DNA from: Olsenella phocaeensis
Lineage (GTDB): Bacteria; Actinomycetota; Coriobacteriia; Coriobacteriales; Atopobiaceae
DNA length: 34,612 nucleotides
Direction of reading: 5' to 3'
NCBI RefSeq assembly: GCF_900120385.1
Contig: NZ_LT635494.1
Location: forward strand, 698,390-733,001
Below are positions 4,515 to 25,869 of this stretch, piece by piece (the stretch's first letter is position 1; each line of letters begins with the position of its first letter). The position numbers and the translations under genes are program-made. The notes below the pieces were generated by a model. That model did not search any database. It saw only the letters and a list, made by a program, of their open reading frames with translations, and was not told where the DNA came from.

Positions 4515-5900
4515 CTACCAGAGCGCCCGCCTGGCAAGCTCGCAGAGCACCGCGCGCACGCGCTCGAGGTCCGCCAACGGTACGTACTCGTTGGGCTTGT
4601 GCGCCATCTCGAGCTCGCCCGGCCCGTAAGAGACGCAGTCGCGGTTCCCGCAGGTTCCCGCCACGACGGCGCCATCGGTGTAGCCGGTGAACACGTCGAT
4701 GCCCGCCTTGGCCCCCGTGACCTCGGCGGAAGCCTCCTGCAGGAGCGCGAGCAGTCCGGACTGGGGGTTTGCCTCGATGGGAGGGCGGTCCCCGGTCACC
4801 TCGTAGCTGCCGACACAGCCTGGCACGGCCCTCTCGGCCGCACGAAGGGCGTCCGTCACGATGCCACTGGCAGAGTCGGTGCCCGCAGGAGGCACGAGCC
4901 GCATGTCAATCCACACATGGCAGTCGTCGGGTACCACGTAGGGCCGGTAGCCACCCTCTATCTGTCCGAAGGTCACGGTGGAAGCGCCGAGGTCGGGATG
5001 CCTCTCCAGTGCCGCCACGGCCGAGCGTATGCGCACGACCGCCTCGGCGGCAGCGGCGACGGCGTCCGCCCCGCGCCAGGGCGTGCTCGCGTGTGCGGTG
5101 ACACCGCGCAGCTCGAGCTCGAACCAGCTGCGGCCCTTGTGTGCCATGCGCGCCTTGCCGCCCGTTGGCTCCGTGTCCAGCACCCAGTCGGTACCGCCCA
5201 CCCATCCGGTGGCGATCGCGGCCTCGATGCCGCGCATGAAGTCCTCCTCATCAACCGTGCAGAGCAGCGTCATGCGGCGGCGGGGGAGGCGTCCCCTCAG
5301 CGCGACCTCGTCGAGGGCGCTCCCAAAGGCAAGCATCGCGCAGGCAAGGCCGCCCTTCATGTCACAGGAGCCGCGGCCATAGAGCCGCCCGTCAAGTACC
5401 CTCGCCCCCAGGGCGGGGGTCTCGTCGTCCCAGCCATCCCCCAGGACGACGGTGTCCTGGTGACAGCAGTAGACGAGCCCCGGCAGGCCTTCGGTCGTGG
5501 CCTCGTCGTCAGGCGAGAGCCCCGTCACCTCCGTGCCCGTGGCATCATGCTCACCCGCGGCGGGAATCACGGCCCTCAGGCAGGGCCGGCCGGGAAGCGC
5601 CTCGAGCTCTTCGAGGAAGACGTGGCCCAGTACCTCGCGCCCGCCCTTGCCGGCAAGCTCGCGCGCCCGTCCGATGCGACTTTCGAGCCAGCCGCGTACG
5701 AAGCCCTCGACTTCGCCCTCGAAGGCGCCAGGGTCGCTGCTGTCGATCCTCACGAGCGCCTGGGTGAGCCCGACCACGTCGTTCGTGCTGCGGTCCGTGC
5801 CCTTGTCCGCGCTGGCGTTGGCATCCGCATAAGCGCCAGCGCCGGCGACCTGCGCCAGCAAGTCTCCCTTGTCTTCTCCAACCATGACGTCCCGAGCCAT
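4515..5900 (-). CDS. M20-family metallohydrolase (ArgE/DapE/YgeY type)
   Basis: This 461-residue protein has the M20 dinuclear-metal ligands in order: HQD (His147, Asp149), GRGSCDMKGG (Asp180), VDEED (Glu218, Glu219), DTEPT (Glu244) and a C-terminal His434 in MAHKPNEY. His270, in TAHAS, lies in the dimerisation lid. Such enzymes cleave amide bonds of N-acyl amino acids, peptides or carbamoyl compounds. The ATG at 5900 has GGGAGG eight bases upstream; an upstream GTG at 5909 abuts that site and is unlikely. The segment near residues 95-140 looks like a family-atypical insertion. It follows the YheO-type regulator by 39 bp on the same strand, and it sits beside ssnA/ygfK as ygeY does in E. coli. 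A role in breaking purine-derived carbamoyl compounds is plausible, but sequence identity to YgeY is not obvious. Confidence 0.75.
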   Translation of the reverse strand: MARDVMVGEDKGDLLAQVAGAGAYADANASADKGTDRSTNDVVGLTQALVRIDSSDPGAFEGEVEGFVRGWLESRIGRARELAGKGGREVLGHVFLEELEALPGRPCLRAVIPAAGEHDATGTEVTGLSPDDEATTEGLPGLVYCCHQDTVVLGDGWDDETPALGARVLDGRLYGRGSCDMKGGLACAMLAFGSALDEVALRGRLPRRRMTLLCTVDEEDFMRGIEAAIATGWVGGTDWVLDTEPTGGKARMAHKGRSWFELELRGVTAHASTPWRGADAVAAAAEAVVRIRSAVAALERHPDLGASTVTFGQIEGGYRPYVVPDDCHVWIDMRLVPPAGTDSASGIVTDALRAAERAVPGCVGSYEVTGDRPPIEANPQSGLLALLQEASAEVTGAKAGIDVFTGYTDGAVVAGTCGNRDCVSYGPGELEMAHKPNEYVPLADLERVRAVLCELARRALW

Positions 5901-5939
5901 GCGGCCCACCTCCCGGAAGGCGATCGCCTCGAGCCCGGG

Positions 5940-6590
5940 CTACCCCTGCGCCTGGGCCTTGGCCTCGTCCATGTAGCTGTACAGGGTGTACTTCGAGATG
6001 CCGAAGTAGTTGCAGACCTTCTGGCCCGACTTGGTGACCAGGAAGGCGCCGGAGTCGTTGAGGAAGCCGATTGCCTTGACCTTGTCCTCCTTGGTCATGA
6101 GGGTGACGGGCTTGCCCACGACCCGCACGCTCTGCTCGATGAGCTCGTCCAGGAGTTCGGTCACGCTCTGGGGGATGGGCTCGGGGTCTGCCGCACCCTG
6201 CGCGGCGACGGCGGTGAGCGACTCCAGCTCGTGACGTGCGGCAAGGAGCATGGTGATGTCGTAGTTGATGGCAAAGATGCCGTCCACCTCGCCGTCCTCG
6301 CCGCGCAGGAAGATGGTGGACGACTTCAGGATCTTGCCGTCCTCGGTCTTGGTGAGGTAGGCGAGCCGGTCCTCGACGGGGTTGCGGCGGTCGTGCAGTG
6401 CCTCGAGCACGACATGCGAGGGGCCGTCTCCCACCGCACGGCCCGACACATGGCCGTTCTCGATGGCGACGATGGTGCTCGAGGGGTTGTCGGCCGAGAG
6501 GTCGTGGATGACCACCTCGCAGCCCGGTCCGAACTGGGTCGCGATGCCATGTGCGAGGGAGCGGCAGAACTCGATGTCCTGTGCACGCAT
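5940..6590 (-). CDS. YheO/DauR-family PAS-HTH transcriptional regulator
   Basis: This 216-residue protein has the two parts of the YheO family. A PAS-like sensor covers residues 1-125 (CEVVIHDLS, SSTIVAIENGHVSGR, LKSSTIFLRGEDGEVDGIFAINYDIT). A C-terminal helix-turn-helix follows at about 165-212 (KEDKVKAIGFLNDSGAFLVTKSG, then VCNYFGISKYTLYSYM). Members such as DauR respond to small molecules and control nearby catabolic genes. The start at 6590 is fixed by GGAGG five bases before the ATG; the frame extends upstream without a better start. It is divergent from ssnA, and the 454-bp gap carries the CGTTAT-N12-ATAACG palindrome. It is the best candidate in the window to control the purine genes, although no contact between them is shown. 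Confidence 0.85.
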   Translation of the reverse strand: MRAQDIEFCRSLAHGIATQFGPGCEVVIHDLSADNPSSTIVAIENGHVSGRAVGDGPSHVVLEALHDRRNPVEDRLAYLTKTEDGKILKSSTIFLRGEDGEVDGIFAINYDITMLLAARHELESLTAVAAQGAADPEPIPQSVTELLDELIEQSVRVVGKPVTLMTKEDKVKAIGFLNDSGAFLVTKSGQKVCNYFGISKYTLYSYMDEAKAQAQG

Positions 6591-7044
6591 GGGAACCTCC
6601 CGTTGATGTCGCCCGCGAGCTGGGCGCCGACCCTGCGAGGTCGCAGGGATGCCTATCAAAGAGTTATGAGAGCCGACCTTTGGCGACCTGCGTCGCGAGC
6701 GGGTCTGGCAGCCGAATGGTATATCGAATCGCGCCGTGCTCAATAGATGAAGCTTACAAATTGTTAGGGATTTTCGGGGAGGGGTCCCAGCCGGGGCGAG
6801 GAGGTCCCTGCCTGCATGGGGCCACATCGCGTCGTGCGACGTCACTCTCGCATGTGCAAAACGTTATTTATTTAAAAATACAACGCGCCGATGGTGGTAT
6901 ATCGACCGCCTACGACATCACTGATTCTTACTTTTCTTTTTTCCACCTATCATTTTTTCAGATATAGACGTGGTAAGAGAGGACCACGCCTCACAAGTAT
7001 CCGGCCGTAGCTGATCTGCGGCGCTCAGCAGGGGGAGGGGTCTC
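6591..7044. promoter_or_regulatory. AT-rich divergent promoter region between regulator and ssnA
   Basis: This gap is far more AT-rich than the rest of the window, especially 6740-6970, as expected for strong promoters. It contains the 24-bp palindrome at 6862-6885, pyrimidine-rich runs at 6930-6960, and a small hairpin (CGTTGT-free stem CGTGGT 6969-6974 with ACCACG 6983-6988) in the ssnA leader. Exact -35/-10 boxes cannot be fixed by eye. No gene is seen inside it. Confidence 0.6.
6862..6885. promoter_or_regulatory. Candidate operator, CGTTAT-N12-ACAACG (copy 1)
   Basis: This 24-bp imperfect palindrome has an A/T-only centre (TTATTTAAAAAT), 160 bp before the ssnA start. The same arms, length and A/T-rich centre recur at 21740-21763 ahead of xdhA. 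TATTTA-like -10 words lie inside it, so a bound protein would block or recruit polymerase. Confidence 0.6.
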
Positions 7045-8400
7045 ATGCTGCTCGTAGCAAATGGTAGGGTCATCACTCGTGACGAGGCGCATCCGTACTT
7101 CGAGGACGGCGCGGTCGTCGTCGACGGCACCAAGATCGTGGAGGTCGGCGACAGGTCCGCGCTCGAGGGCAAGTACCCCGACGCAGAGTTCCTCGACGCG
7201 CGTGGCGCGGTGATCATGCCGGGACTCATCAACGCCCACACCCACATCTATTCCGGCCTCGCCCGCGGCCTGGCCATCAAGGGCTGCAACCCAACCAACT
7301 TCCTCGAGAACCTCGAGCAGCAGTGGTGGAAGATCGATCGCAACCTCAACATGGAGGGCACCCGCGCCTCCGCGTACGCGACCATCCTGGACTGCATCCG
7401 CGACGGCGTGACCACCATCTTCGACCACCACGCCAGCTTCCTCGAGATTCCCGGGTCGCTTTTCGCGATCAAGGACGTTGCGGAGGAGACAGGCATGCGC
7501 GCCTGCCTCTGCTACGAGACCTCCGACCGCGACGGCGAGGAGAAGTGCGACCAGGCCATCGCCGAGAACGCCGAGTTCGCGCGCTGGGCCGCCGGGCAGG
7601 ACTCCGACATGATCGCCGCCATGTTCGGCGGGCATGCCCTGTTCACGCTCTCGGACAAGACCCTCGACAAGATGGTCGAGGCCAACGACGGCCTCACCGG
7701 CTTCCACATCCACGTCTGCGAGGGAATGAACGACGTCTATGACAGCCTGGGCAACCACGGCTGCACCGCCGTGCACCGCCTCCTCGACCACGGCCTCCTG
7801 GGCGAGAAGACCATGCTGGGCCACTGCATCCACATCACGCCCGCCGACATGGACGTGATCGCCGAGACCAAGACCATGATCGTGAACAACCCCGGCTCCA
7901 ACATGAACAACGCCGTGGGCTGCGCCCCCGTGCTCGAGTTCTTCAAGCGCGGCATCACCGTGGGTATGGGCACCGACGCCTACACCCATGACGTGCTGGA
8001 GAGCCTGAAGACCTTCATCATGATCCAGCGCCACAACAGCTGCATGCCCAACGTCGCCTGGGGCGAGGACATGGCCATGCTGTTCAAGAACAACCGCACC
8101 ATCGCCGAGAAGTACTTCTCGGTCAAGCCCCAGGGCAAGCCCCTCGGCATCCTGGCCCCCGGCGCCGCGGCCGATATCGCGATCTTCGACTACAAGCCCT
8201 TCACGCCCTTCTCGGACGAGAACATCGACGGCCACATCCTCTTCGGCTTCGAGGGCAAGGCCTGCCGCACGACCATCATCAACGGTCGCGTCCTCTACAA
8301 GGACCGCGAGTTCGTCGACCTGGACGAGGAGGCCATCAACGCCCGCATCCTCGCCGCCTCCAAGCAGCTCTGGGGGGAGCTCAACGGCCGCGAGTACTAA
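7045..8400 (+). CDS. ssnA: SsnA-type amidohydrolase of the purine/selenium cluster
   Basis: This 451-residue member of the amidohydrolase superfamily follows E. coli SsnA along its length (WW-x-x-DR near 94-99, DHHAS near 127-131, SNMNN near 285-289). Metal-site residues are visible: His65 and His67 in NAHTH, His221/His223 in HIH, His260 in LGHC and Asp311 in GTDA. The superfamily hydrolyses C-N bonds in rings and amidines. SsnA is one of the genes needed by gut anaerobes for urate/purine breakdown, though its exact substrate is not settled. A GGGGGAGGGG site sits just before the ATG. It is the first gene of the unit with ygfK and the xdhD-type enzyme. The -1 gene is the divergent regulator. 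Confidence 0.93.
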   Translation: MLLVANGRVITRDEAHPYFEDGAVVVDGTKIVEVGDRSALEGKYPDAEFLDARGAVIMPGLINAHTHIYSGLARGLAIKGCNPTNFLENLEQQWWKIDRNLNMEGTRASAYATILDCIRDGVTTIFDHHASFLEIPGSLFAIKDVAEETGMRACLCYETSDRDGEEKCDQAIAENAEFARWAAGQDSDMIAAMFGGHALFTLSDKTLDKMVEANDGLTGFHIHVCEGMNDVYDSLGNHGCTAVHRLLDHGLLGEKTMLGHCIHITPADMDVIAETKTMIVNNPGSNMNNAVGCAPVLEFFKRGITVGMGTDAYTHDVLESLKTFIMIQRHNSCMPNVAWGEDMAMLFKNNRTIAEKYFSVKPQGKPLGILAPGAAADIAIFDYKPFTPFSDENIDGHILFGFEGKACRTTIINGRVLYKDREFVDLDEEAINARILAASKQLWGELNGREY

Positions 8401-8480: not shown

Positions 8481-11477
8481 ATGAGCGACATCATGCGCCC
8501 CATTCCGTTCGACGCCCTCATGGGCTGGATCCTGGACGAGTACCACACGCAGGGCAGCATCTTCGGCATCACCCGCTTCGCCAAGGGTGACGGGAAGGGC
8601 ACCCGCCGCATCTTCGGCGAGAGCATCGAGACGCCCGTCGGCCCTGCGGCTGGCCCCAACTCCCAGCTCGCCCAGAACATCGTCGCGAGCTACGTGACCG
8701 GTGCCCGTTTCTTCGAGCTCAAGACCGTCCAGGTCATGGACGGCGAGGAACTCTCGGCCTGCGTCAACAAGCCCTGCATCCTGGCAGGTGACGAGGGCTA
8801 CAACTGCGAGTGGTCCACCGAGCTGACCGTCCCCCAGGCCTTCGACGAGTACGTCAAGGCGTGGGTCGCCTGCAAGCTGCTCTCCCGCGAGCTTGACCTG
8901 GGATCTGCCGACGGCTTCGTGTTCAACATGTCAGTGGGCTACGACCTCGAGGGCATCAAGAGCCCCAAGGTCGACAAGTACATCAACGACATGAAGGACG
9001 CCTCCGCCACGCCGGCCTTCACCGAGGCCATCGCCTGGGCGAAGGCGAACCTCGACCGCTTCGAGCACGTGGACGAGGCCTTCGTCGACTCCATCACCCC
9101 GCAGGTCTCGCGCTCCATCACCGAGTCCACGCTGCACGGCTGCCCTCCCGCAGAGATCGAGCGCATCGCCACCTACCTCATGTGCGAGAAGGGCCTCAAC
9201 ACCTTCGTAAAGTGCAACCCCACGCTCCTGGGCTACGAGTACGCCCGCACCACCCTGGACTCCCTGGGCTTCGACTACATCGCCTTCGACGACCACCACT
9301 TCCTGGAGGACCTCCAGTGGGAGGACGCCGTCCCCATGCTCGAGCGCCTCATCGCGCTGGGCAAGGAGAGGGGCCTGGAGTTCGGCGTCAAGCTGACCAA
9401 CACCTTCCCCGTCGACGTGACCCGCAACGAGCTGCCTAGCGAGGAGATGTACATGTCGGGCCGCTCGCTGTACCCGCTCTCCCTCACCCTGGCCGCCCGG
9501 CTGTCCGAGCAGTTCGACGGCAAGCTGCGCATCTCGTACTCCGGCGGTGCCGACGCCAACAACGTGGCCGGGCTCGTCTCGGCCGGCATCTGGCCCGTCA
9601 CCGTGGCGACCACCATCCTCAAGCCCGGTGGCTACCAGCGCTTCGGCCAGATCGTGCGCGTCCTCGAGTCCGTCGAGGCCAAGGCCTTCGACGGCGTTGA
9701 CGCCAAGGCCGTCCGCGGCATGGTGGGCGAGGCCGTGAGGGGTGACGCCTACCGCAAGCCCATCAAGCCCCTGCCCGAGCGCCACGTCGCGGCGAAGCTT
9801 CCCCTCATGGACTGCTTCACGGCGCCCTGCCGCCACGACTGCCCCATCCACCAGGACATCCCCGGCTACCTCATGGCCGTGGACGAGGGCCGCTACGAGG
9901 ACGCCCTCAACGTCATCCTCGAGCGCAACGCCCTGCCCTTCGTGACCGGCACCATCTGCCCGCACCACTGCGGCGACGGCTGCATGCGCAACTACTACGA
10001 GGAGCACGTCCACATCCGTGAGGCAAAGCTCAAGGCCGCCGAGGCGGCAAGCGAGAAGGTCCTGCCCACGCTCGCCCGCAGGGCCGAGGTCAAGGGCAAG
10101 AAGGTCGCCGTCATCGGCGGAGGCCCTGCCGGCCTCTCCGCCGCGTCCTTCCTCTCCCGCGCCGGCGTCGACGTGACCGTGATCGAGCGCACCCAGAAGC
10201 TGGGCGGCATCGTTCGTCATGCCATCCCCGAGTTCCGCATCTCGGGCGAGGCCATCGACCGCGACATCGAGCTCTGCAGCGCCTACGGCGCCAAATTCGA
10301 GTGCGGCGTCGAGGTCAAGTCGGTCGACGAGCTCCTGAAGCAGGGCTACACCGACGTCGTCATCGCCATCGGCGCCTGGGCGCCTGGTCGCGCCACCCTC
10401 AAGTCCGGCGCCGAGATGGACGCCATCGACTTCCTCGTGGCCGCCAAGGGTGACCCCGACTCCCTCGAGCTCGGCAGCGACGTCGTGGTCATCGGTGCCG
10501 GCAACACCGCCATGGACGTGGCACGTGCCGCCAAGCGCATCAAGGGCGTCGAGAACGTCCGCCTGGTCTACCGCCGCACCCGCCGCTACATGCCCGCCGA
10601 CGAGGAGGAGCTCGCGCTCGCGCTCGAGGACGGGGTCGAGTTCATGGAGCTCCTCTCGCCCGACACGCTTGCCGACGGCGTCCTGACCTGCGAGGTCATG
10701 GAGCTTGGCGCTCCCGACGAGTCTGGCCGCCGCTCGCCCGTCTCCACCGGCAAGACCACGACCATTCCCGCCACCACCGTCATCGCCGCGGTGGGCGAGA
10801 ACGTCGAGGGCACGCTCTTCGAGGCCTCCGGCATCGAGGTCGACCGCAAGGGACGCCCCGTGGTCGACGCCAGCTACAAGACCAACCTGCCCCACGTCTA
10901 TGCCATCGGTGACGCCCGCCGCGGGCCTGCCACCGTGGTCGAGGGCATTGCGGACGCCGCCATGGTGACCGTCGCCATCTCGGGCGCGGACTTCAACGGC
11001 AAGGTCGAGTCCAACGTCAAGGCCGACTACGACGCCCCGCTCGCCAAGCGCGGCGACCTCTGTCTGGACGTCAAGGGCTGCGACAGGACCCGCTGCCTGG
11101 GCTGCGCCACCGTCTGCGAGACCTGCGTCGAGGTCTGCCCCAACCGCGCCAACGTCGCGATTCGCGTGCCCGGCATGCGCCAGCGCCAGATCGTGCACGT
11201 CGACGGCATGTGCAACGAGTGCGGCAACTGCGCCGTCTTCTGCCCCTACCAGGGTGGCCGTCCCTACAAGGACAAGCTCACCCTCTTCTGGAGCAAGGAG
11301 GACTTCGACAACAGCACCAACGAGGGCTTCCTTCCCATCGACGGCGGCATGCTCGTCAGGCTTGACGGAGGCACCAAGGTATACGATGTGAATGACAAGG
11401 ACTGCGGACTGTCCGAGTCGGTGCGCGCCACCATCGCTGCCGTGCAAAGCGACTATGCCTACCTCATGATCGGCTAG
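8481..11477 (+). CDS. ygfK: YgfK, iron-sulfur flavoprotein oxidoreductase
   Basis: This 998-residue protein follows E. coli YgfK (about 1,030 residues) end to end. Residues 1-410 form a dihydroorotate-dehydrogenase-like barrel (TPVGPAAGP, ARFFELKTVQ, STLHGCPP, VKLTNTFP, ISYSGGA). Near 445-500 lie the cysteines of a GltB-small-subunit-like Fe-S domain (CRHDCPIHQDIP, ICPHHCGDGC). FAD and NAD(P)H Rossmann loops are GGGPAG near 545 and GAGNTA near 670. Two ferredoxin-type clusters close the protein (CLGCATVCETCVEVCP, CNECGNCAVFCP). YgfK was first annotated as a selenate reductase subunit, but its genetics link it to purine/urate breakdown. It probably passes electrons between NAD(P)H, ferredoxin and a purine-derived substrate on the barrel flavin. 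The start has AGGAGAGG eight bases before it. It is cotranscribed with its neighbours. Confidence 0.95.
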   Translation: MSDIMRPIPFDALMGWILDEYHTQGSIFGITRFAKGDGKGTRRIFGESIETPVGPAAGPNSQLAQNIVASYVTGARFFELKTVQVMDGEELSACVNKPCILAGDEGYNCEWSTELTVPQAFDEYVKAWVACKLLSRELDLGSADGFVFNMSVGYDLEGIKSPKVDKYINDMKDASATPAFTEAIAWAKANLDRFEHVDEAFVDSITPQVSRSITESTLHGCPPAEIERIATYLMCEKGLNTFVKCNPTLLGYEYARTTLDSLGFDYIAFDDHHFLEDLQWEDAVPMLERLIALGKERGLEFGVKLTNTFPVDVTRNELPSEEMYMSGRSLYPLSLTLAARLSEQFDGKLRISYSGGADANNVAGLVSAGIWPVTVATTILKPGGYQRFGQIVRVLESVEAKAFDGVDAKAVRGMVGEAVRGDAYRKPIKPLPERHVAAKLPLMDCFTAPCRHDCPIHQDIPGYLMAVDEGRYEDALNVILERNALPFVTGTICPHHCGDGCMRNYYEEHVHIREAKLKAAEAASEKVLPTLARRAEVKGKKVAVIGGGPAGLSAASFLSRAGVDVTVIERTQKLGGIVRHAIPEFRISGEAIDRDIELCSAYGAKFECGVEVKSVDELLKQGYTDVVIAIGAWAPGRATLKSGAEMDAIDFLVAAKGDPDSLELGSDVVVIGAGNTAMDVARAAKRIKGVENVRLVYRRTRRYMPADEEELALALEDGVEFMELLSPDTLADGVLTCEVMELGAPDESGRRSPVSTGKTTTIPATTVIAAVGENVEGTLFEASGIEVDRKGRPVVDASYKTNLPHVYAIGDARRGPATVVEGIADAAMVTVAISGADFNGKVESNVKADYDAPLAKRGDLCLDVKGCDRTRCLGCATVCETCVEVCPNRANVAIRVPGMRQRQIVHVDGMCNECGNCAVFCPYQGGRPYKDKLTLFWSKEDFDNSTNEGFLPIDGGMLVRLDGGTKVYDVNDKDCGLSESVRATIAAVQSDYAYLMIG

Positions 11478-11582: not shown

Positions 11583-12050
11583 ATGGCCAAGAGAAGGGAC
11601 AAGGTAGCCGTCGTACATTGCTGGGGGGGAGCCAGCAGGTACTGCAACTACGGCTGCGTCGGCTGCGGCGCGTGCGTCGCCGCCTGCAAGGTCGACGCGA
11701 TCGGCCTCAACGAGAACAACACCGCGCAGGTGAGGCGCGAGGCCTGCATAGGCTGCGGCCTCTGTGCGAGGGCCTGTCCGCAGGGGATCATCGAGATAGT
11801 CCCCCGCGAGGCGACAATCCTGCCGCTCTGCTCCAATCCGGACCCGGGCTCGGTCGCACGCAAGCTCTGCGACTCGAGCTGCATCGCCTGCGGCGCCTGC
11901 GAGCGAGCCTGCCCGGCGGATGCCATCCACGTGACGGACAACCTGGCGGTGACGGACGTCGAGCTCTGCATCGCCTGTGGCATGTGCGCGACCAAGTGCC
12001 CGCGCGGCGTCATCCGTGACGCCAACGGCATCCTGGCCAAGGGCTTCTAG
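11583..12050 (+). CDS. RnfB-like polyferredoxin (four 4Fe-4S motifs)
   Basis: A 155-residue soluble protein with four CxxCxxCxxxC motifs: Cys25-28-31-35, Cys55-58-61-65, Cys100-103-106-110 and Cys129-132-135-139. Additional cysteines at 13, 21, 83 and 96 could complete another centre. The opening VVHCWGG and the overall spacing resemble the ferredoxin part of RnfB, but the membrane helix and N-terminal Fe-S domain are absent. It is an electron carrier. Its position, between ygfK and 12 bp ahead of the xdhD-type enzyme, suggests it carries electrons between them. A GGGGGGATAGG site precedes the ATG. Similar small ferredoxins occur in the E. coli cluster (ygfS), but I do not assert that this is the same gene. 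Confidence 0.85.
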   Translation: MAKRRDKVAVVHCWGGASRYCNYGCVGCGACVAACKVDAIGLNENNTAQVRREACIGCGLCARACPQGIIEIVPREATILPLCSNPDPGSVARKLCDSSCIACGACERACPADAIHVTDNLAVTDVELCIACGMCATKCPRGVIRDANGILAKGF

Positions 12051-12062
12051 AGGGGAGGGGAC

Positions 12063-14834
12063 ATGGGAAAGTACAGCTTCTCCGTCAACGGCGAAGAGAT
12101 CTCGACGGACGAGAACGTATCGCTCCTGCGCTTCCTGCGCGACGAGCTCCACCTCACCTCCGTGAAGGACGGCTGCTCCGAGGGCGCCTGCGGCACCTGC
12201 ACCGTCGTCATCGACGGGATTGCCACCAAGGGCTGTGTCATCACCACCAAGCTTGCCCAGGGCAAGCAGATCCTCACCGTGGAGGGCCTTGGCGAGGAGG
12301 AGAAGGAGGCCTTCGTCTATGCCTTCGGCGCCGTGGGGGCCGTGCAGTGCGGCTTCTGCATCCCCGGCATGGTGATGAGCGGGGCAGCCCTCCTGAGGGC
12401 CAACCCCAATCCCACCGAGGACGACGTCAAGGTCGCGATAAAGGGCAACGTCTGCCGCTGCACCGGCTACAAGAAGATCATCGAGGGCATCCTGCTCGCC
12501 GCCCAGATCCTCAGGGGAGAGAGGCAGATCGACCCCGAGCTCGAGAGAGGCGACGACTACGGCGTGGGCAAGCGCGCCTTCCGCGTGGACGTGCGCCGCA
12601 AGGTCCTGGGCTACGGCGTGTATCCCGACGACCTCAACGAGACCGACTACCCCGACATGGCCTACGCCTCGGCGGTGCGCTCGAAGTACCCGCGTGCCCG
12701 CGTGCTCTCCATAGACAGCTCCAAGGCCGAGGCCCTGCCTGGCGTCCTGGGCGTGCTCACCGCCAAGGACGTGCCCGTCAACCAGGTGGGCCACCTCATC
12801 CAGGACTGGGACGTGATGATCGCCGAGGGCGACGTCACCCGCTTCGTGGGAGATGCCATCTGCCTGGTGGTTGCCGAGGACGAGAAGACCCTGGCAAAGG
12901 CCAAGAGGCTCGTCAAGGTGACCTACGAGGAGCTCGAGCCCGTCCGCAACATCGAGGAGGCGAAGGCCGAGGGTGCCCCCATCATCCACGACAGCTTCCT
13001 TGCCTTCGGCAACGTCGTCGAGCTCCACGACAACGTCTGCCAGAGCCGCCACGTGACCCGCGGCAACGCCAAGGAGGCGCTCGCCAAGTCCGCCCACGTG
13101 GTGACCAAGACCTTCGAGACGCCCTTCACCGAGCATGCCTTCCTGGAGCCCGAGTGCGCCGTGGCCTTCCCCTACAAGGACGGCGTCAAGGTCCAGAGCA
13201 CCGACCAGGGCGCCTACGACACGCGCAAGGAAGTCGCCCACATGTTTGGCTGGGACGAGACGCCCGAGCGCGTCGTCGTCCAGACCATGCTGGTCGGCGG
13301 CGGCTTCGGCGGCAAGGAGGACGTGAGCGCCCAGCACCTCGCCGCCCTCGCCGCCCTGCACTTCGGACGCACGGTGAAGTGCCGCTTCACGCGCAAGGAG
13401 TCCATCGACTTCCATCCCAAGCGCCACGCCATGCAGGGCACCTTCACCCTGGGCTGCGACGAGGAGGGCAACCTCACCGCTCTGGACTGCGAGATCAACT
13501 TCGACACCGGTGCCTACGCGAGCCTCTGCGGCCCCGTCCTCGAGCGCGCCTGCACCCATTCGGTCGGTCCCTACAAGTACCAGAACACCGACATACGTGG
13601 GTACGGCTACTACACCAACAACCCGCCCGCGGGCGCCTTCCGCGGCTTCGGCGTGTGCCAGAGCCAGTTCGCCCTCGAGTGCCTCATCGACGTGCTTGCC
13701 GACGAGGTGGGCATCTCTCCTTGGGAGATGCGCTACAAGAACGCGATCGAGCCCGGCGAGGTCCTGCCCAACGGCCAGATCGCCGACTGCTCCACCGCGC
13801 TCAAGGAGACCCTCCTGGCGGTGAAGGACGCCTATGACGCCAACGCCGACCACTGCGGCCTCGCCTGCGCCATGAAGAACGCGGGCGTGGGCGTGGGCCT
13901 GCCTGACGCCGGGCGCTGCAAGATCGTGGTCGAGGGCGGCAAGGCGATGGTCTATTCCGCGACCTCCGACATCGGCCAGGGCTGCAACACCGTCTTCCTC
14001 CAAGACGTGGCGGAGGCCAGTGGCCTTCCGCGCGCCCTCATCCGCAACGGCGAGTGCTCCACCGAGGCGGCGCCCGACTCCGGCACCACCTCCGGCTCGC
14101 GCCAGACCGTCATCACCGGCGAGTCCGTGCGCGGTGCCGCCTTCCTGCTCCGCGACGCGATGCTCGCGTACGAGGCGGGGGAGGGCGTGCCCCAGGAACC
14201 CGTTCGCGCCAGGGGTGACGGCGTCAAGGTCGAGTACGAGGGCGGCAGGAGCTACGACGTCCATGCCTGCGAGCTCAAGGCCGGCGGCGGACGCCACGCC
14301 AATGATCCCGCTTCCGCGCTAGCGGCGCTCGAGGGCTGCGAGTTCAGCTACGTCTACTTCGAGCCCACCGACAAGCTGGGGGCGGACAAGTCCAACCCCA
14401 AGAGCCACGTGTGCTACGGCTTCGCCACGCACCTGGTGATCCTGGACAAGAAGGGCAAGGTCTCCCAGATCTACGCCGCGCACGACTCAGGCAAGGTTGT
14501 CAACCCCATCGCCATCCAGGGCCAGATCGAGGGTGGCGTGCTCATGGGCATGGGCTATGCCCTCACCGAGGACTTCCCGCTCAAGGACTGCGTGCCCACC
14601 GCGCGCTACGGGACCCTTGGCCTCCTGCGTGCCAGCCAGATTCCCGACATCCACGCCATCTACGTGGAGAAGGACGAGCTCCTGCCCGTGGCCTACGGCG
14701 GCAAGGGCATCGGGGAGATCGCGACCATCCCCACCGCGCCTGCGGTGCAGAACGCGTATCGCCGCGTCAGCGGCAGGCTCCAGACCAAGCTGCCGCTCGT
14801 CGACACGCCCTACGAGAGGAGGCCGCGCGGGTAG
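12063..14834 (+). CDS. xdhD: XdhD-type selenium-dependent molybdenum hydroxylase (2Fe-2S and Mo domains fused)
   Basis: This 923-residue fusion begins with two 2Fe-2S domains (Cys38, 43, 46, 58 and Cys96, 99, 131, 133; CGFC and CRC motifs). The xanthine-dehydrogenase molybdopterin domains follow: GGGFGGKEDV near 412, GAFRGFG near 523, SDIGQGCN near 637 and the catalytic glutamate Glu885 in GKGIGEIA. There is no FAD domain. The architecture and the gene company match E. coli XdhD and the family of selenium-dependent xanthine dehydrogenases. In that family a labile selenium ligand sits on molybdenum, not as selenocysteine, so no UGA codon is expected and none is seen. It hydroxylates purines, or runs in the reductive direction, with ferredoxin as likely partner. 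GGGGAGGGG precedes the start. Cofactor-maturation genes are not in the window. Confidence 0.9.
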   Translation: MGKYSFSVNGEEISTDENVSLLRFLRDELHLTSVKDGCSEGACGTCTVVIDGIATKGCVITTKLAQGKQILTVEGLGEEEKEAFVYAFGAVGAVQCGFCIPGMVMSGAALLRANPNPTEDDVKVAIKGNVCRCTGYKKIIEGILLAAQILRGERQIDPELERGDDYGVGKRAFRVDVRRKVLGYGVYPDDLNETDYPDMAYASAVRSKYPRARVLSIDSSKAEALPGVLGVLTAKDVPVNQVGHLIQDWDVMIAEGDVTRFVGDAICLVVAEDEKTLAKAKRLVKVTYEELEPVRNIEEAKAEGAPIIHDSFLAFGNVVELHDNVCQSRHVTRGNAKEALAKSAHVVTKTFETPFTEHAFLEPECAVAFPYKDGVKVQSTDQGAYDTRKEVAHMFGWDETPERVVVQTMLVGGGFGGKEDVSAQHLAALAALHFGRTVKCRFTRKESIDFHPKRHAMQGTFTLGCDEEGNLTALDCEINFDTGAYASLCGPVLERACTHSVGPYKYQNTDIRGYGYYTNNPPAGAFRGFGVCQSQFALECLIDVLADEVGISPWEMRYKNAIEPGEVLPNGQIADCSTALKETLLAVKDAYDANADHCGLACAMKNAGVGVGLPDAGRCKIVVEGGKAMVYSATSDIGQGCNTVFLQDVAEASGLPRALIRNGECSTEAAPDSGTTSGSRQTVITGESVRGAAFLLRDAMLAYEAGEGVPQEPVRARGDGVKVEYEGGRSYDVHACELKAGGGRHANDPASALAALEGCEFSYVYFEPTDKLGADKSNPKSHVCYGFATHLVILDKKGKVSQIYAAHDSGKVVNPIAIQGQIEGGVLMGMGYALTEDFPLKDCVPTARYGTLGLLRASQIPDIHAIYVEKDELLPVAYGGKGIGEIATIPTAPAVQNAYRRVSGRLQTKLPLVDTPYERRPRG

Positions 14835-14944: not shown

Positions 14945-16456
14945 ATGGGAGAGCTCTTGAGGATGGAGGGCGTCGACAAGCGCTTCGGCTCGTTCTACGC
15001 GAACCGCAACGTCACCCTCTCCATACAAGAGGGCGAGGTGCACACCCTGTTGGGCGAGAACGGAGCGGGCAAGTCGACGCTCATGAACTGCCTGATAGGC
15101 CTGTACACGCCGTCTGCGGGCAAGATCTACATGAGGGGCGAGGAGGTCCACATCGACTCCCCGCGCGATGCCGTCGCGCACGGCATCGGCATGGTGCACC
15201 AGCACTTCATGCTGGTGGAGGACATGAGCGGCCTCGAGAACATCATCCTGGGCGACAAGCGCCACAACACGCCCCTGCTCCAGAAGGCCGACGACCGCAA
15301 GACCATCGAGGGGCTCATGCAGCGCTACGGCCTGGAGGTCGACCTCGACCAGCGCGTGGGCGACATGTCCATCGGCATGCAGCAGCGCGTCGAGATCCTG
15401 AAGGTCCTCTTCCGCGGAGCCGACCTGCTCATCCTCGACGAGCCCACCGCCGTCCTCACCGACCTCGAGGTCCAGGGCCTCTTCGACATTATGAACTCCC
15501 TGACCGACGAGGGTAAGTCGATCATCTTCATCTCGCACAAGATGCGCGAGGTCATGCACATCTCCGACCGCGTTACGGTCCTGCGCCGCGGCGAGTGCAT
15601 CGACACGGTCGAGGTCTCCAAGACCACCGAGCAGGAACTCGCCGACCTCATGATCGGCCAGAAGTTCACCGAGAGCACCTACCAGAAGGTGGACGCGACC
15701 GACCAGCCCATGCTCACGCTCACCAACGTGTCCTACCATCCCGAGGTCAAGCACGGCGGACTGAAGGACGTCACCCTCACCCTCCACAAGGGAGAGATCC
15801 TGGGCGTCGCGGGCATCGACGGCAACGGGCAGGGTGCCCTCGCCGAGGTCGTGACCGGCCTCATCGCCCCCGAGTCCGGCGAGGTCGTCGGCCCCGACGG
15901 CTCGAGCATCGCGCTCTTCTCGCCCCAGGCCTTCATCGACGCCGGCTTCGGCAACATCCCCGAGGACCGCAACAAGATGGGCCTCGTCGGCGACATGACG
16001 ATCGCCGAGAACCTGGTCCTCAAGCAGACCAACACCGAGCGCTTCTCCGCAGGGCACGGCGCCTGGCTCAAGATGGATGCCATCCAGGAGTTCGCCGAGC
16101 AGCTGCGCGAGGAGAACGACATCCGCTGCACCTCCGTCAGCCAGACGGCCCGCAGCCTCTCGGGCGGCAACCAGCAGAAGGTCATCCTCGCGCGCGAGCT
16201 CGACAGCCACCCCAAGCTCCTCGTGGCCGTCTATCCCACGCGCGGCCTGGACATCGGCGCCACCGGCTTCGTCCACGACCAGATCGTGGCGCAGCGCGAC
16301 GCCGGCTGCTCGGTGCTGCTCATCTCGGCTGACTTCGACGAGGTCCTGAAGCTCTCGGACCGCATCGTCGTCCTCTTCGAGGGCCAGATCATGGGAACGT
16401 ACCCCGGCGCGAATCCCCCCATCAAGGAGATCTCGCTCGCCATGGCAGGAAAGTAG
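14945..16456 (+). CDS. Nucleoside/purine ABC importer, double ATPase subunit (NupO/YufO type)
   Basis: This 503-residue protein with two ABC domains belongs to the group serving BMP-type importers. The first domain is complete (Walker A GENGAGKST at 37-45; signature-like SIGMQQRVE near 141-149; Walker B LLILDEPTAVL near 160). The second has the usual degenerate Walker A (GIDGNGQGA near 288) with an intact signature LSGGNQQKV near 405, as is normal for this group. It powers uptake of nucleosides or purine bases at the inner face of the membrane. GAGGTGG lies ten bases before the ATG. It begins 110 bp after xdhD and is followed at 12 bp by the first permease, so transporter and hydroxylase are probably one transcript. 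Confidence 0.93.
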   Translation: MGELLRMEGVDKRFGSFYANRNVTLSIQEGEVHTLLGENGAGKSTLMNCLIGLYTPSAGKIYMRGEEVHIDSPRDAVAHGIGMVHQHFMLVEDMSGLENIILGDKRHNTPLLQKADDRKTIEGLMQRYGLEVDLDQRVGDMSIGMQQRVEILKVLFRGADLLILDEPTAVLTDLEVQGLFDIMNSLTDEGKSIIFISHKMREVMHISDRVTVLRRGECIDTVEVSKTTEQELADLMIGQKFTESTYQKVDATDQPMLTLTNVSYHPEVKHGGLKDVTLTLHKGEILGVAGIDGNGQGALAEVVTGLIAPESGEVVGPDGSSIALFSPQAFIDAGFGNIPEDRNKMGLVGDMTIAENLVLKQTNTERFSAGHGAWLKMDAIQEFAEQLREENDIRCTSVSQTARSLSGGNQQKVILARELDSHPKLLVAVYPTRGLDIGATGFVHDQIVAQRDAGCSVLLISADFDEVLKLSDRIVVLFEGQIMGTYPGANPPIKEISLAMAGK

Positions 16457-16468
16457 GAGGGAGGAACA

Positions 16469-17584
16469 ATGGCAAAGAGCTCTAGCTCTGACAACAGCCG
16501 CGAGAAGCTGCTGACGACGCTCACCCCCGTCGTCTCGGTCCTCCTCGCGCTCATCGTGGGGGCCATCATCATCGCGTGCCTCGGCAAGAGCCCCGTTCAG
16601 GGTTACGCCGCCATGCTCCAGGGCTCCCTGGGCTCCCTCTCCAAGGTCGCCAAGACCCTGGAGCGCTCCTGCCCGCTGATCTTCACCGGCCTCTGCGCCG
16701 TGTTCGCCTACAAGTGCGGCGTCTTCAACCTCGGCGGAGAGGGCCAGTTCATCATGGGTGGCTGCGCCGCCGCCACCGTCGTCCTGGGCCTTGGCCTCGA
16801 CGGCCCCGTCGGCATGCTCTGCGGCCTCACCGCCGGCATCGTCGTGGGCGGCCTCTGGGGCCTGCTTCCCGGCATCATGAAGATCACGCGCGGCCTCAAC
16901 GAGATGATCACCACGATCATGCTCAACTACGTCGCCATGTACTTCATGGAGTACGTCTTCAAGAACCTCCTCTCGGATAACGGCCTTCCCAAGACCCTCG
17001 CCATGCCCAACGCCGCGCGCCTGCCCGGCATCGGCGGCATGCACGTGGGCGTCATCCTTGCCGTCCTCCTGGGCCTCTTCCTGTGGTACCTGATCTTCCG
17101 CACCTCCTTCGGCTTCAAGATCCGCGCCGTGGGCATGAACCCCATCGCCTCGCGCGTGAGCGGCTTCCCGGTGAACAGGCTCGTCCTTCTCGCCTTCGTC
17201 ATCTCGGGCGCCATCGCCGGAATGGGCGGCGCCGTCGAGCTCCTGGGCAAGACCCCCTACCGCCTGGCGGCGGGCTTCGGTGCGGGCTTCGGCTTCGACG
17301 GCGTGGCCATCGCCCTCATCTCGCAGCTCAACCCCATAGCTGCCATGCTGGTCGCCATCCTCTTCGGCATCCTCAACACGGGCGGCACCATGATGCAGAG
17401 CGTCATCGGCGTCCCCACCGCCATCGTCGACATCATCCGCGGCCTGATAATCATCTTCGCCGTCGCCGGCATGGCCATCGTCAAGCTCCCCAAGATCATT
17501 GCGTTCTTCAGCTCCCGTGGACCCAAGCAGGGCGCGAACGAGCCTGAGGTCGCCACCGACAAGAAAGCGGAGGTGACGGCGTAA
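16469..17584 (+). CDS. Nucleoside/purine ABC importer, permease 1 (NupP/YufP type)
   Basis: This 371-residue protein has about nine to ten hydrophobic segments, the first near residues 18-42. It has the BPD_transp_2 motifs of BMP-type permeases: YKCGVFNLGGEGQFIMGG near 85-100, GLNEMITTIMLNYV near 142-156, and GMNPIASRVSG near 222-232, the site that contacts the ATPase. The last 25 residues are a charged cytoplasmic tail. GGAGGGAGG precedes the start. It overlaps the second permease by one base (TAATG), so the two are translationally coupled. Confidence 0.93.
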   Translation: MAKSSSSDNSREKLLTTLTPVVSVLLALIVGAIIIACLGKSPVQGYAAMLQGSLGSLSKVAKTLERSCPLIFTGLCAVFAYKCGVFNLGGEGQFIMGGCAAATVVLGLGLDGPVGMLCGLTAGIVVGGLWGLLPGIMKITRGLNEMITTIMLNYVAMYFMEYVFKNLLSDNGLPKTLAMPNAARLPGIGGMHVGVILAVLLGLFLWYLIFRTSFGFKIRAVGMNPIASRVSGFPVNRLVLLAFVISGAIAGMGGAVELLGKTPYRLAAGFGAGFGFDGVAIALISQLNPIAAMLVAILFGILNTGGTMMQSVIGVPTAIVDIIRGLIIIFAVAGMAIVKLPKIIAFFSSRGPKQGANEPEVATDKKAEVTA

Positions 17585-18519
17585 TGGACTTCTTCATGAC
17601 CTCACTGCCCACGATCCTCAACGCCACGACCCTGAGTGCCGTGCCCATCCTCCTGGCCGCCCTGGGCGAGCTCTTCTCCGAGCGCGCCGGCTTGGTCAAC
17701 ATCGGCCTCGAGGGCATCATGGCCGTGGGCGCCTTCGTCGCCTTCGCCGTGGGCAAGATGACGGGCAACCTCTGGCTCGGCGTCTGCGCCGCCATCGTCG
17801 CCGGCATCGCCATCAACATGATCTACGCCTTCTGCACCGTCACGCTCTGCGTCGACCAGGTGGTCGTGGGCATGGCCATCAACATCCTTGCGCCCGCCCT
17901 GGCGCTCTTCGGCTACAACATGTTCGTCGGATCCAACTCCGCCAACGCCACCGGCGTCATCATGGAGAGGATCCAGATCCCGGGGCTGAGCGCGATACCC
18001 TACATAGGTGGGCCGGTCTTCGGTCAGCAGCTCCTTGCCTATCTCGCCTTCATCCTGGTGCCCCTCGTGACCTACTTCTTCAAGAGCTTCCGTGGCGGCC
18101 TCTCGTTCCGCTCGGTGGGCGAGAACCCCCAGGCTGCAGAGACCCTGGGCATCAACGTCATCCGCATCAAGTTCGTGGCCTGCGTCGCCTGCGGCGCGCT
18201 GGCTGGCATGGGCGGGGCGTTCCTCTCGGTCTGCATGACCCCGATCTACATCGACGGCATCGTCATGGGCCGCGGCTTCATCGCGCTGGCGACGGTCATC
18301 TTTGGTCGTTGGAGCGCCGTGGGCATCATGGCCGCGAGCCTGCTCTTCGGCTTCTTCGACGGGCTCAACGTCGCCCTGCAGGCCCAGTTCAACGCCGCGC
18401 CCGTCATGTTCTTCAAGATGATCCCGTACATCTTCACGATCATCGCCCTGATCTTCTTCGGTTCCAGGCACGCCGGGCCCAAGGCGAACGGCCAGCCCTA
18501 CTACCGCGAGTCGCGTTAG
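17584..18519 (+). CDS. Nucleoside/purine ABC importer, permease 2 (NupQ/YufQ type)
   Basis: This 311-residue partner permease has about eight to nine membrane segments and the family signature FSERAGLVNIGLEGIM near 35-50. The ATPase-contact loop VGENPQAAETLGINV lies near 178-192. It pairs with permease 1 to form the membrane channel, as the two permeases do in nucleoside importers of Bacillus, Lactococcus and Treponema. Its start overlaps the previous stop. A hairpin three bases after the stop separates it from the lipoprotein gene, which seems to have its own promoter. Confidence 0.93.
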   Translation: MDFFMTSLPTILNATTLSAVPILLAALGELFSERAGLVNIGLEGIMAVGAFVAFAVGKMTGNLWLGVCAAIVAGIAINMIYAFCTVTLCVDQVVVGMAINILAPALALFGYNMFVGSNSANATGVIMERIQIPGLSAIPYIGGPVFGQQLLAYLAFILVPLVTYFFKSFRGGLSFRSVGENPQAAETLGINVIRIKFVACVACGALAGMGGAFLSVCMTPIYIDGIVMGRGFIALATVIFGRWSAVGIMAASLLFGFFDGLNVALQAQFNAAPVMFFKMIPYIFTIIALIFFGSRHAGPKANGQPYYRESR

Positions 18520-18521
18520 TC

Positions 18522-18554
18522 CGCTGCCGCCCGGGCAACGCCCGCTGGGCAGCG
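18522..18554 (+). terminator. Two-part hairpin after the permease genes
   Basis: CGCTGCC (18522-18528) pairs with GGCAGCG (18548-18554), and inside it CGGGC pairs with GCCCG around AAC. ATTTACAAAA follows. It is likely a terminator or processing site between the permeases and the lipoprotein gene, allowing different transcript levels. Confidence 0.55.
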
Positions 18555-18592
18555 CGATTTACAAAAGCACCGTTCAGCGTGCAAGAATGGGA

Positions 18593-18598
18593 TATAAA
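18593..18598 (+). promoter_or_regulatory. Candidate -10 box TATAAA for the lipoprotein gene
   Basis: GATATAAACT stands out in a GC-rich gap, 115 bp before the lipoprotein start and just after the hairpin at 18522-18554. The region 17 bp upstream (ACCGTTC) is only a weak -35. A separate promoter would fit the usual need for excess binding protein. Confidence 0.4.
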
Positions 18599-18712
18599 CT
18601 CTGGGCCTTTTGGCCATCGAGTCGAAGGGAGTGGGCACAGCACAGAGACACGAGGTTGGAAGTTCTTCGCATGTGTCAGTGGCAGGAATGTCTTCTTAGA
18701 AAGGGAACTACC

Positions 18713-19813
18713 ATGAGCGAGTCCAAGTTCAACTTCATGCTTAACAGGCGTCAGGCCATCGCGCTGGGCCTCGGATCCGCGGCCACGGTCGCCCTCGCCG
18801 GCTGCAGCGGCGGAAGCGGCAGCGACGACAAGGCAGCGGGCGGGGATTCCTCCGAGGGCAGTTACAAGGTCGCCATGATCATGTCCGGCACCATCACCGA
18901 CGGCGGCTGGGACCAGGGCCACTACGAGTCCCTGAAGCGCGCCATCGAGTCCCACCCCAAGTGGGAGATGCTCGAGCCCAAGGAGAACACGCCCGACGCC
19001 GATGCCGCCACCGCCGCCCAGAGCTACGTCGACCAGGGCGTCGACCTCATCATCGGCAACGGAAACCAGTTCGCCTCCGACTGGGCCGAGGTCGTCGCCG
19101 ACGCGGAGGGCAACGACAAGGTCCACTTCCTCATCACCAACACCAACCCCACCTCCGAGATGGCCGACTACAAGTCCCTCGCCAAGGTGGAGACGGTGCT
19201 GCCCAACTTCAAGCAGACCGGCGCCCTCGCGGGCGTCGTCGCCGGCCTCATGACCAAGACCAACAGCATCGGCTTCATCGGCGGCATGAAGCTCCCCTCC
19301 ACCGAGGCCAAGTACGCCGCCTACCTGGCCGCCGCCCAGAAGATCAACCCCGAGATCAAGGGCCAGTACAACTTCGAGGCCGGCTTCACCGACGCCTCCC
19401 TGGGCACCAAGCTGACCGAGAACTGGATCAGCACCAACAACGTCGACGTCATGTGGGGCGACGCTTCCGCAGTCGACAACGGCTCGCGCCAGGCCCTCGA
19501 GTCTGCCGGTGCCGACACCCACTTCGACATCGCCCAGCCCATCGACATCGCCGGTGCCGACCAGCCCACCGTCGTGACCTCCACCGTCACCGACTGGAAG
19601 ATCGACCAGGCCATGGACGAGATCGAGAAGGGCGAGTTCGGCGACGGCAAGGTCATCACCGCCGACATGTCCAACGGTGGCATCTCGCTGGGCAAGTTCT
19701 CGGACAAGGTCCCCGAGGACGTCCAGGCCAAGATCAAGGAGCTCGCCGAGCAGATCAAGAGCGACTCCTTCGTGACCGACGCAGAGGTCGAGGCCATCGC
19801 CTCCACCCTCTAG
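18713..19813 (+). CDS. BMP-family substrate-binding lipoprotein, intact copy
   Basis: This 366-residue protein has a twin-arginine-type signal (NRRQAIALG at 11-19) ending in a lipobox, LAG-Cys31, so it is probably folded and exported by Tat and then lipid-anchored outside the membrane. A Ser/Gly/Asp-rich linker leads to the BMP domain (VAMIMSGTITDGGWDQGHYE near 52-71; VDLIIGNGNQFASDW; VDVMWGDASAVDNGSRQAL). BMP/PnrA proteins capture nucleosides and, in some cases, free purines for NupOPQ-like channels. The ATG at 18713 was chosen for its AAGGGAAC site and because the signal peptide starts there; the frame is open 42 codons further up without family resemblance. The downstream paralogue is very similar but broken. 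Confidence 0.93.
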   Translation: MSESKFNFMLNRRQAIALGLGSAATVALAGCSGGSGSDDKAAGGDSSEGSYKVAMIMSGTITDGGWDQGHYESLKRAIESHPKWEMLEPKENTPDADAATAAQSYVDQGVDLIIGNGNQFASDWAEVVADAEGNDKVHFLITNTNPTSEMADYKSLAKVETVLPNFKQTGALAGVVAGLMTKTNSIGFIGGMKLPSTEAKYAAYLAAAQKINPEIKGQYNFEAGFTDASLGTKLTENWISTNNVDVMWGDASAVDNGSRQALESAGADTHFDIAQPIDIAGADQPTVVTSTVTDWKIDQAMDEIEKGEFGDGKVITADMSNGGISLGKFSDKVPEDVQAKIKELAEQIKSDSFVTDAEVEAIASTL

Positions 19814-25363: not shown

Positions 25364-25869
25364 TGGACATGAGAATCCTGAAGTGCAAGGTCAACGGCAA
25401 GGAAGTCCAGGTGGGCTATGACCCCCGCGAGTCTCTGCTCGACACCCTGCGCAACCGCCTGCACCTCACCAGCGTCAAGCGTGGCTGCGAGGTCGGCGAG
25501 TGTGGCGCCTGCACCGTCCTAATCGACGGTGTCGCCACCGACACCTGCCTCTACCTCACCGACTGGGCGCAGGGCAAGGAGATCCTGACCGTCGAGGGCC
25601 TCCAGGCGGCAGACGGCACGCTCCACCCCGTCCAGCAGGCCTTCGTGGACGAGTTCGCCGTCCAGTGCGGCTTCTGCATTCCCGGGCTCATCATGAGCAC
25701 GGTCGAGATAGCAAACTCCGGCAAGACCTACACCAGGGACGAGCTGCGCAAGCAGCTCTCGGGCCACCTCTGCCGCTGCACGGGCTACCAGGACGTCATG
25801 AACGCGGTGGAGAAGGCCGTCGAGTTCTGCCACGAGCGCGTGGGGGCAGACGAGACGACCACCGCCTAG
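25363..25869 (+). CDS. xdhC: Xanthine dehydrogenase, 2Fe-2S subunit
   Basis: This 168-residue protein has the two [2Fe-2S] domains of the family: plant-ferredoxin type Cys42, 47, 50 and 62 (GCEVGECGACTV), and the helical domain with Cys102, 105, 137 and 139 (QCGFCIPG, CRCTGYQD). It wires the Mo subunit to the FAD subunit. The start overlaps xdhB. The name follows E. coli xdhABC usage; in other bacteria xdhC means a maturation chaperone, which this is not. A strong hairpin ends the unit ten bases past the stop. Confidence 0.93.
   Translation: MDMRILKCKVNGKEVQVGYDPRESLLDTLRNRLHLTSVKRGCEVGECGACTVLIDGVATDTCLYLTDWAQGKEILTVEGLQAADGTLHPVQQAFVDEFAVQCGFCIPGLIMSTVEIANSGKTYTRDELRKQLSGHLCRCTGYQDVMNAVEKAVEFCHERVGADETTTA

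Follow-up and report, generated by a model that had tools for sequence, protein, structure and literature searches.

A four-cluster ferredoxin encoded beside XdhAC in Olsenella phocaeensis as the probable electron-transfer partner of the enzyme

The locus and its two central proteins

Within a stretch of 34,612 nucleotides of Olsenella phocaeensis (assembly GCF_900120385.1, contig NZ_LT635494.1, positions 698,390 to 733,001; hereafter the window), the genes ssnA, ygfK, a ferredoxin gene and a hydroxylase gene follow one another in this order, and the last two are the subject of this report. The open reading frames (ORFs) of ygfK (8481-11477), the ferredoxin (11583-12050) and the hydroxylase (12063-14834) all lie on the + strand and have a common reading frame, with 105 bp between ygfK and the ferredoxin gene and 12 bp between the ferredoxin stop and the hydroxylase start. 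The original prediction described a four-cluster RnfB-like protein encoded 12 bp upstream of an xdhD-type hydroxylase devoid of a flavin adenine dinucleotide (FAD) domain. The ORF coordinates, the cysteine motifs and a match to NF005504 confirm the former protein, and a TIGR03311 match together with the absence of FAD_binding_5 confirms that the latter lacks a FAD domain; the label "xdhD-type", however, names the wrong subfamily, the enzyme being of the TIGR03311 XdhAC type.

The hydroxylase, of 923 residues, scored 1152.6 bits against TIGR03311 (Se_dep_XDH, cut-off 830.45). Its score against TIGR03313, the family of Escherichia coli XdhD, was 239.6 bits, so far under the cut-off of 1101.9 that an identity as an E. 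coli-type XdhD was rejected. XdhAC is a hydroxylase/dehydroxylase in which two [2Fe-2S] domains and the molybdopterin domains are fused (Pfam matches Fer2, Fer2_3, Fer2_2, Ald_Xan_dh_C and MoCoBD_1/2), with no Pfam match to FAD_binding_5. All eight cysteines expected to bind the [2Fe-2S] clusters (38, 43, 46, 58, 96, 99, 131 and 133) are present and invariant across the 45 rows of alignment A5, and residues Thr61 to Leu64 (12243-12254, + strand) come directly past the ligand Cys58. The closest solved relative, both by sequence and by structure, is the aldehyde oxidoreductase of Desulfovibrio gigas, to which XdhAC could be superposed over its full length (1sij; Z 40.6, root-mean-square deviation 2.4, 846 aligned residues). 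The selenium maturation marker yqeB is found in the same genome (TIGR03309, 350.6 bits, cut-off 220). The enzyme also has insertions at residues about 312-321 and 700-760, which are missing from the XdhAC rows L023-L028 of alignment A1.

The ferredoxin has 155 residues, 20 of them cysteines, with four C..C..C...C motifs beginning at residues 25, 55, 100 and 129. It aligns to RnfB-type models over their C-terminal portion (positions 125-269 of 293 in NF005504) and thus carries the four-cluster C-terminal module typical of RnfB, and the solved sequences closest to this part are those of RnfB (9eri_B, 7zc6_B) and of the MvhB polyferredoxin (9sw6_G). The iron-sulfur (Fe-S) domain PF04060 was not among its 14 Pfam matches at an E value of 0.001. 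The RnfB membrane segment is absent: the highest 19-residue hydropathy near the N-terminus is 1.53, versus at least 2.12 in 22 of 23 RnfB proteins, and the protein appears to be soluble.

The ferredoxin family and its distribution

Of the 23 RnfB proteins used for comparison, 12 were taken from among the RnfB-like matches of the class to which the window belongs and 11 from Clostridia. In a tree from which two-cluster copies were excluded, the 27 four-cluster ferredoxins linked to XdhAC, including the Firmicutes copies encoded downstream of it, fell on one side of a branch that separated them from all 23 RnfB proteins (support 98/97); the four-cluster class as used here extends to copies in which one motif is a variant of RnfB type and the other three are canonical. 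A second distinguishing feature is the C-terminal tail, which in the window reads D146-x-x-G149-I150 (12018-12032, + strand). The pattern C..C..C...C....[IVL].D..G[ILV] was present in 50 of the 50 collected linked copies (38 of 38 distinct ones, two-cluster forms included) and in none of the 23 RnfB. Among 45 other Fe-S ORFs of the loci it was found in four (L066, L073, L078 and L081), all of which proved by their coordinates to be XdhAC-adjacent copies. Judged by tree and tail, the XdhAC-linked ferredoxins are a family separate from RnfB, and in the data examined this family occurred only beside XdhAC.

The possibility that the ferredoxin is a stray subunit of an Rnf complex was considered and rejected, as it lacks a strongly hydrophobic N-terminus and belongs to a separate clade, and as no RnfC over the cut-off was found in the genome, RnfC being the only Rnf subunit sought besides RnfB and the genome being 95% complete. 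A search for a second full RnfB-like protein in the genome returned nothing above short 4Fe-4S similarity. As a separate observation, the ferredoxin of locus L196 (genome G100) groups with the downstream-encoded copies of Lachnospiraceae (support 94/85, not a starred branch) and its XdhAC with the window's class, a discordance that hints at replacement of the ferredoxin gene by transfer.

The distribution of the pair was surveyed in 296 genomes of the window's class, presumably Coriobacteriia, in which XdhAC exceeded the cut-off in 83 matches from 81 genomes. By coordinates, 63 of the 83 have a ferredoxin match 24-90 bp upstream on the same strand; among the other 20, reading of the DNA disclosed a two-cluster ferredoxin in four (G160, G046, G018 and G256), 14 have none and two (G225 and G281) are cut by contig ends and were set aside. 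A ferredoxin gene therefore lies directly upstream of XdhAC, on the same strand, in 67 of the 81 scorable loci, 43 with the four-cluster and 24 with the two-cluster form. In this count G021, "four" by match length, was assigned to the two-cluster form after its DNA was read, and the XdhAC fragments of G187, G218 and G293, which fall under the cut-off, were left uncounted despite their adjoining ferredoxin. The order ssnA, ygfK, ferredoxin, xdhAC was seen in 23 of the 24 ferredoxin-bearing stretches from the class, the remaining one (L197) beginning inside the operon. On the XdhAC tree, which omitted same-genome duplicate loci, the fragments L111 and L237 and the near-copies L030, L032, L035 and L166, the ferredoxin state requires six changes and the two-cluster form makes up one clade. 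No fusion of the two genes was noticed, and no XdhAC ORF in the examined loci bore a C..C..C...C motif.

Outside the class, 24 XdhAC were found in 21 of 391 genomes sampled from Clostridia, two of them with a ferredoxin within flanks of 1.5 kb. A further set of 24 named-contig loci (L082-L104 and L111) contained four ferredoxins, and its locus L094 comes from a genome that is also in the Clostridia sample, as G297. In total, the Firmicutes ferredoxin adjoins XdhAC on its upstream side in L090, L099 and L233 and on its downstream side in L094 and L095. Three of these five draft genomes (G296, G298 and G570) have ygfK on a separate contig, and in L094 and L099 the ferredoxin-XdhAC pair is separated from ygfK by other genes.

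Which protein the ferredoxin serves

The proposal that the ferredoxin is the partner of the FAD-less hydroxylase, already made in the original prediction, gains support from the adjacency of the two genes in both the class and Firmicutes, from the occurrence of both gene orders, from the single clade and from the shared tail. We consider it probable, at roughly 0.6, that the ferredoxin is a dedicated electron-transfer partner of XdhAC, docking in place of the FAD subunit and feeding what is likely a reduction of urate. Physical binding, the direction of electron flow, the donor and the substrate are here inferred, as follows. The ferredoxin would dock, in lieu of an FAD subunit, on the [2Fe-2S] domain at the N-terminus of XdhAC. 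Contact would probably be made by the C-terminal dicluster half of the ferredoxin together with the D-x-x-G-I tail, the proposed docking element, against the surface around Thr61-Leu64. Low-potential electrons supplied by a cellular ferredoxin (or by YgfK) would then pass from the [4Fe-4S] to the [2Fe-2S] clusters and on to molybdenum.

Among all columns, position 64 of XdhAC, which lies in the suggested contact patch, is the best marker of the presence of the ferredoxin. The residue there is hydrophobic in 32 of the 35 rows that have a ferredoxin and in one of the 51 that have none, with one gap. In class members that have no ferredoxin and nest among those that do (L165 in one group, L163 and four others in a second), Leu64 is changed to Gln or Arg. 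Among the 566 XdhAC columns that the ferredoxin-bearing class members conserve, four (61, 64, 786 and 802) have a different residue in each of the nested groups, versus one of 483 in YgfK, and the best presence-marking column of XdhAC reaches 0.96, that of YgfK 0.79. The link between Leu64 and the ferredoxin is a post hoc lead suggested by these alignments.

Several results weigh against the assignment to XdhAC. Position 64 was chosen after the fact, and independent pairs number two to four in favour and none against (p at least 0.125); the two nested groups join at an unresolved fork and possibly represent one loss, and three ferredoxin-bearing Firmicutes copies (L094, L099 and L233) have Arg at this position. 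Of the 81 scorable loci in the class, 14 show no such ferredoxin gene next to XdhAC, and the same holds for 22 of the 24 Clostridia-sample loci (1.5 kb read on either side, or less where the contig ended), meaning that the enzyme is able to work without it, and the gene order within the class is a single conserved operon, so that the class rows are not independent. The plain correlation between ferredoxin and XdhAC distances (r 0.57) exceeds 5000 permutations, but shared descent yields the same. When partial correlations are taken, the ferredoxin distances track YgfK and not XdhAC (0.45 versus -0.05, n=20; 0.34 versus 0.11, n=18). Among the parts tested, they correlate best with the C-terminal Fe-S part of YgfK (r 0.59) and least with the Fe-S domain of XdhAC (r 0.16), which is the proposed docking domain. 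The mirror-tree approach is thus unable to assign the partner and leans weakly to YgfK. Read-through AlphaFold2 models, in which a short linker biases placement, gave a predicted template modelling score (pTM) of 0.86 for the whole pair (1083 residues) and 0.73 for the ferredoxin with the Fe-S domain (320 residues). Having global pTM as their sole measure, they show no interface, and the 0.73, although above expectation for unrelated halves, would be a very weak indication of contact. Structure searches returned matches to the XdhAC part only, the ferredoxin part being barely probed by them.

YgfK itself (8481-11477, + strand) is a probable yanthine (2,8-dioxopurine) reductase (PMC12507026). 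It scored 1358.5 bits against TIGR03315 (cut-off 835.3) and consists of an N-terminal part assigned a flavin mononucleotide site (PMC12507026), Fer4_20 (PF14691), a domain for FAD and reduced nicotinamide adenine dinucleotide (phosphate), NAD(P)H, matched by Pyr_redox_2 (PF07992), and a C-terminal 4Fe-4S part. Electrons could accordingly be relayed from NAD(P)H through the C-terminal clusters of YgfK to the ferredoxin and then to XdhAC within a single three-protein complex, a scheme that overlaps with the proposed partnership. The order ygfK-ferredoxin-xdhAC of the class operon would fit it, as would the tracking of YgfK by the ferredoxin distances and the full-length YgfK scoring over the cut-off in five of the five ferredoxin-bearing Firmicutes genomes tested. 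Such a relay nevertheless seems rather unlikely, given that the Firmicutes ferredoxin stands beside XdhAC and away from ygfK, that several genera retain a full-length YgfK with no ferredoxin, and that YgfK can be without its NAD(P)H part in genomes that retain the ferredoxin (see below). If the ferredoxin served YgfK exclusively, or acted in maturation or as a scaffold, XdhAC would take electrons from any cellular ferredoxin. The mirror-tree result and the many XdhAC without an adjoining ferredoxin are in line with this, which we still hold to be improbable, since the Firmicutes gene adjoins xdhAC and not ygfK, the best presence-marking column lies in XdhAC and the cluster motifs have been kept.

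A natural comparison is offered by the genomes G018 and G256, of two genera, whose YgfK (L167:4304-6067 and L168:7892-9592) is a single open frame that covers profile positions from about 1 to 443 and from 889 to 1012. The whole FAD/NAD(P)H portion in between (444-888) is missing, and there is no Pyr_redox match. In both, a two-cluster ferredoxin still lies between the short ygfK and xdhAC, and XdhAC has its usual FAD-less length. Neither YgfK nor XdhAC thus seems to keep a flavin domain for NAD(P)H in these genomes, which fits a supply of free reduced ferredoxin. This arrangement resembles the Clostridioides difficile variant, for which Li et al. suggested a ferredoxin donor (PMC12507026). 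As to the single complex of hydroxylase, ferredoxin and YgfK that had been put forward, the pairs with ygfK separated or on another contig and the YgfK without a ferredoxin argue against it, whereas the presence of YgfK in all five Firmicutes genomes and the distance correlations argue for it, so that of the three-protein idea the ferredoxin-hydroxylase pairing stands better and a complex including YgfK is possible. The accompanying suggestion of electron bifurcation found no support. A bifurcating or confurcating complex that ties purine conversion to NAD(P)H and ferredoxin has in its favour solely that flavin and Fe-S domains are present; no feature specific to bifurcation was seen, none having been specifically probed, and the short YgfK of G018 and G256 dispenses with the FAD/NAD(P)H part while the ferredoxin remains. 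The E. coli YgfK assay, run with SsnA and NAD(P)H and with no mention of ferredoxin in the accessible part of PMC12507026, counts against it too, and we regard bifurcation as extremely improbable.

The reaction catalysed would most likely be the conversion of urate to yanthine, one step ahead of YgfK and SsnA and the presumed start of anaerobic uric acid breakdown in many gut-type bacteria. Urate is the likely substrate because the Clostridium sporogenes XdhAC reduces it with an artificial donor (PMC12990295) and because YgfK and SsnA act next. Glu606 of E. coli XdhD, a possible specificity residue (PMC12507026), is uninformative on this matter, as in alignment A1 the XdhAC rows lack the stretch that contains it. 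Alternatively, XdhAC could oxidize hypoxanthine, xanthine or another purine with the ferredoxin as acceptor, which would leave the partner claim intact. The family is named after xanthine dehydrogenase, purine couples lie near ferredoxin potentials, and urate reduction could be handled by XdhD, which the genome encodes separately along with a YgfM-like protein. This direction is unlikely in view of the activity of the C. sporogenes enzyme (PMC12990295), of the placement of xdhAC after ssnA and ygfK, and of the FAD-bearing XdhABC already available for oxidation.

In a wider sense, it may be tentatively proposed, at somewhat less than even odds, that a polyferredoxin derived from RnfB, freed from the membrane and reduced to two clusters in one lineage, replaced the FAD subunit of the urate-reducing XdhAC in the class and in some Clostridia and so gave the xanthine oxidase family a new module for electron input. 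If true, uric acid breakdown in such bacteria would use reduced ferredoxin and not NADH. Earlier publications cover the enzyme family, the pathway and the notion that ferredoxin is the donor. The donor that supplies XdhAC with electrons in the cell, and possibly also an accessory protein, have been described as yet to be discovered (PMC12990295). A dedicated RnfB-like polyferredoxin as its electron module was not found in the literature searched, PMC12666987 on C. sporogenes XdhAC and 10.1128/jb.00573-18 being outside its scope. The gene pair offers a concrete, co-expressible candidate for the donor question, with the D-x-x-G-I tail as a sequence tag and the predicted contact patch at XdhAC 61-64 as handles for direct testing, and with the two-cluster and ferredoxin-less relatives as natural controls.

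Genome setting and comparison with known systems

The operon begins in the window with ssnA (7045-8400, + strand; NF005540, 631.4 bits, cut-off 444), encoding an aminohydrolase that partners YgfK in ring opening (PMC12507026). Divergent from it is a gene for a YheO-type PAS/HTH regulator (5940-6845, - strand; PF08348 and PF13309), a kind also found beside many related operons. A gene for an M20-family peptidase (4515-5909, - strand), likewise divergent from the operon and scoring far under the YgeY cut-off, has similar counterparts adjoining six of 40 related stretches. Immediately 3' of xdhAC, in the window and in 12 of the 40 related stretches, comes a BMP-type ATP-binding cassette transporter (14945-19813, + strand), composed of an ATPase, two permeases and a substrate-binding protein and likely devoted to purine or nucleoside uptake. 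Further downstream a separate xanthine dehydrogenase is encoded, built of three subunits that include an FAD subunit of its own (22140-25869, + strand; XdhA 22140-24482, XdhB 24482-25363, XdhC about 25375-25869).

The genome, of 2.28 Mb, has most genes of a reductive uric acid pathway near the window, and the 17 kb past the window encode homologues of YgeX, YgeY, YgeW and HyuA, a YgfM-like FAD protein in which FAD_binding_5 was found, XdhD, a xanQ-type permease, yqeC and yqeB. The XdhD, beside the YgfM-like protein and outside the window (C1:742470-745322), is of the E. coli type (TIGR03313, 1186.5 bits), so that the genome carries both a FAD-linked (XdhD) and a ferredoxin-linked (XdhAC) type of enzyme. 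Among the 296 class genomes this one alone has a TIGR03313 XdhD at E <= 1e-250, which was possibly acquired by transfer. The [2Fe-2S] cysteines are missing from the TIGR03313 XdhD of E. coli (L020:20317-23187), of this genome (L021:9451-12330) and of L097 (3-2771); in the E. coli protein no cysteine precedes residue 190, and in that of this genome the only ones among residues 1-200 are Cys 5, 33, 44 and 149.

Compared with RnfB, the XdhAC-linked ferredoxin stands apart in the tree, has its own tail and lacks the strongly hydrophobic N-terminal stretch of 22 of the 23 RnfB. The nearest structural parallel to XdhAC, the D. gigas aldehyde oxidoreductase (MOP), is also a FAD-less molybdenum enzyme with two [2Fe-2S] clusters and a separate carrier instead of a FAD domain. 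Its proposed partner, however, is a flavodoxin and its reaction is aldehyde oxidation, with no dedicated gene partner mentioned in the accessible part of PMC10223205. In turn, 4-hydroxybenzoyl-CoA reductase, a reductive dehydroxylase of the xanthine oxidase family, resembles the proposed pair in accepting electrons from reduced ferredoxin and in having an extra [4Fe-4S] cluster, but differs in that it keeps FAD and bears the cluster in the FAD subunit instead of a polyferredoxin (PMC12771579). Within the same pathway, E. coli XdhD-YgfM shares the ssnA and ygfK neighbours and the conversion of urate to yanthine, whereas it belongs to TIGR03313, relies on the FAD subunit YgfM and NADH, and has an XdhD without [2Fe-2S] cysteines (PMC12507026). 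Also comparable are C. sporogenes XdhAC, which converts urate to 2,8-dioxopurine with an artificial donor (PMC12990295), and C. difficile XdhD, for which ferredoxin was suggested as donor (PMC12507026). For these two, PMC12990295 and the accessible part of PMC12507026 report neither a flavin subunit, in which they are like XdhAC of the window, nor a dedicated ferredoxin such as the one encoded next to the enzyme in O. phocaeensis.

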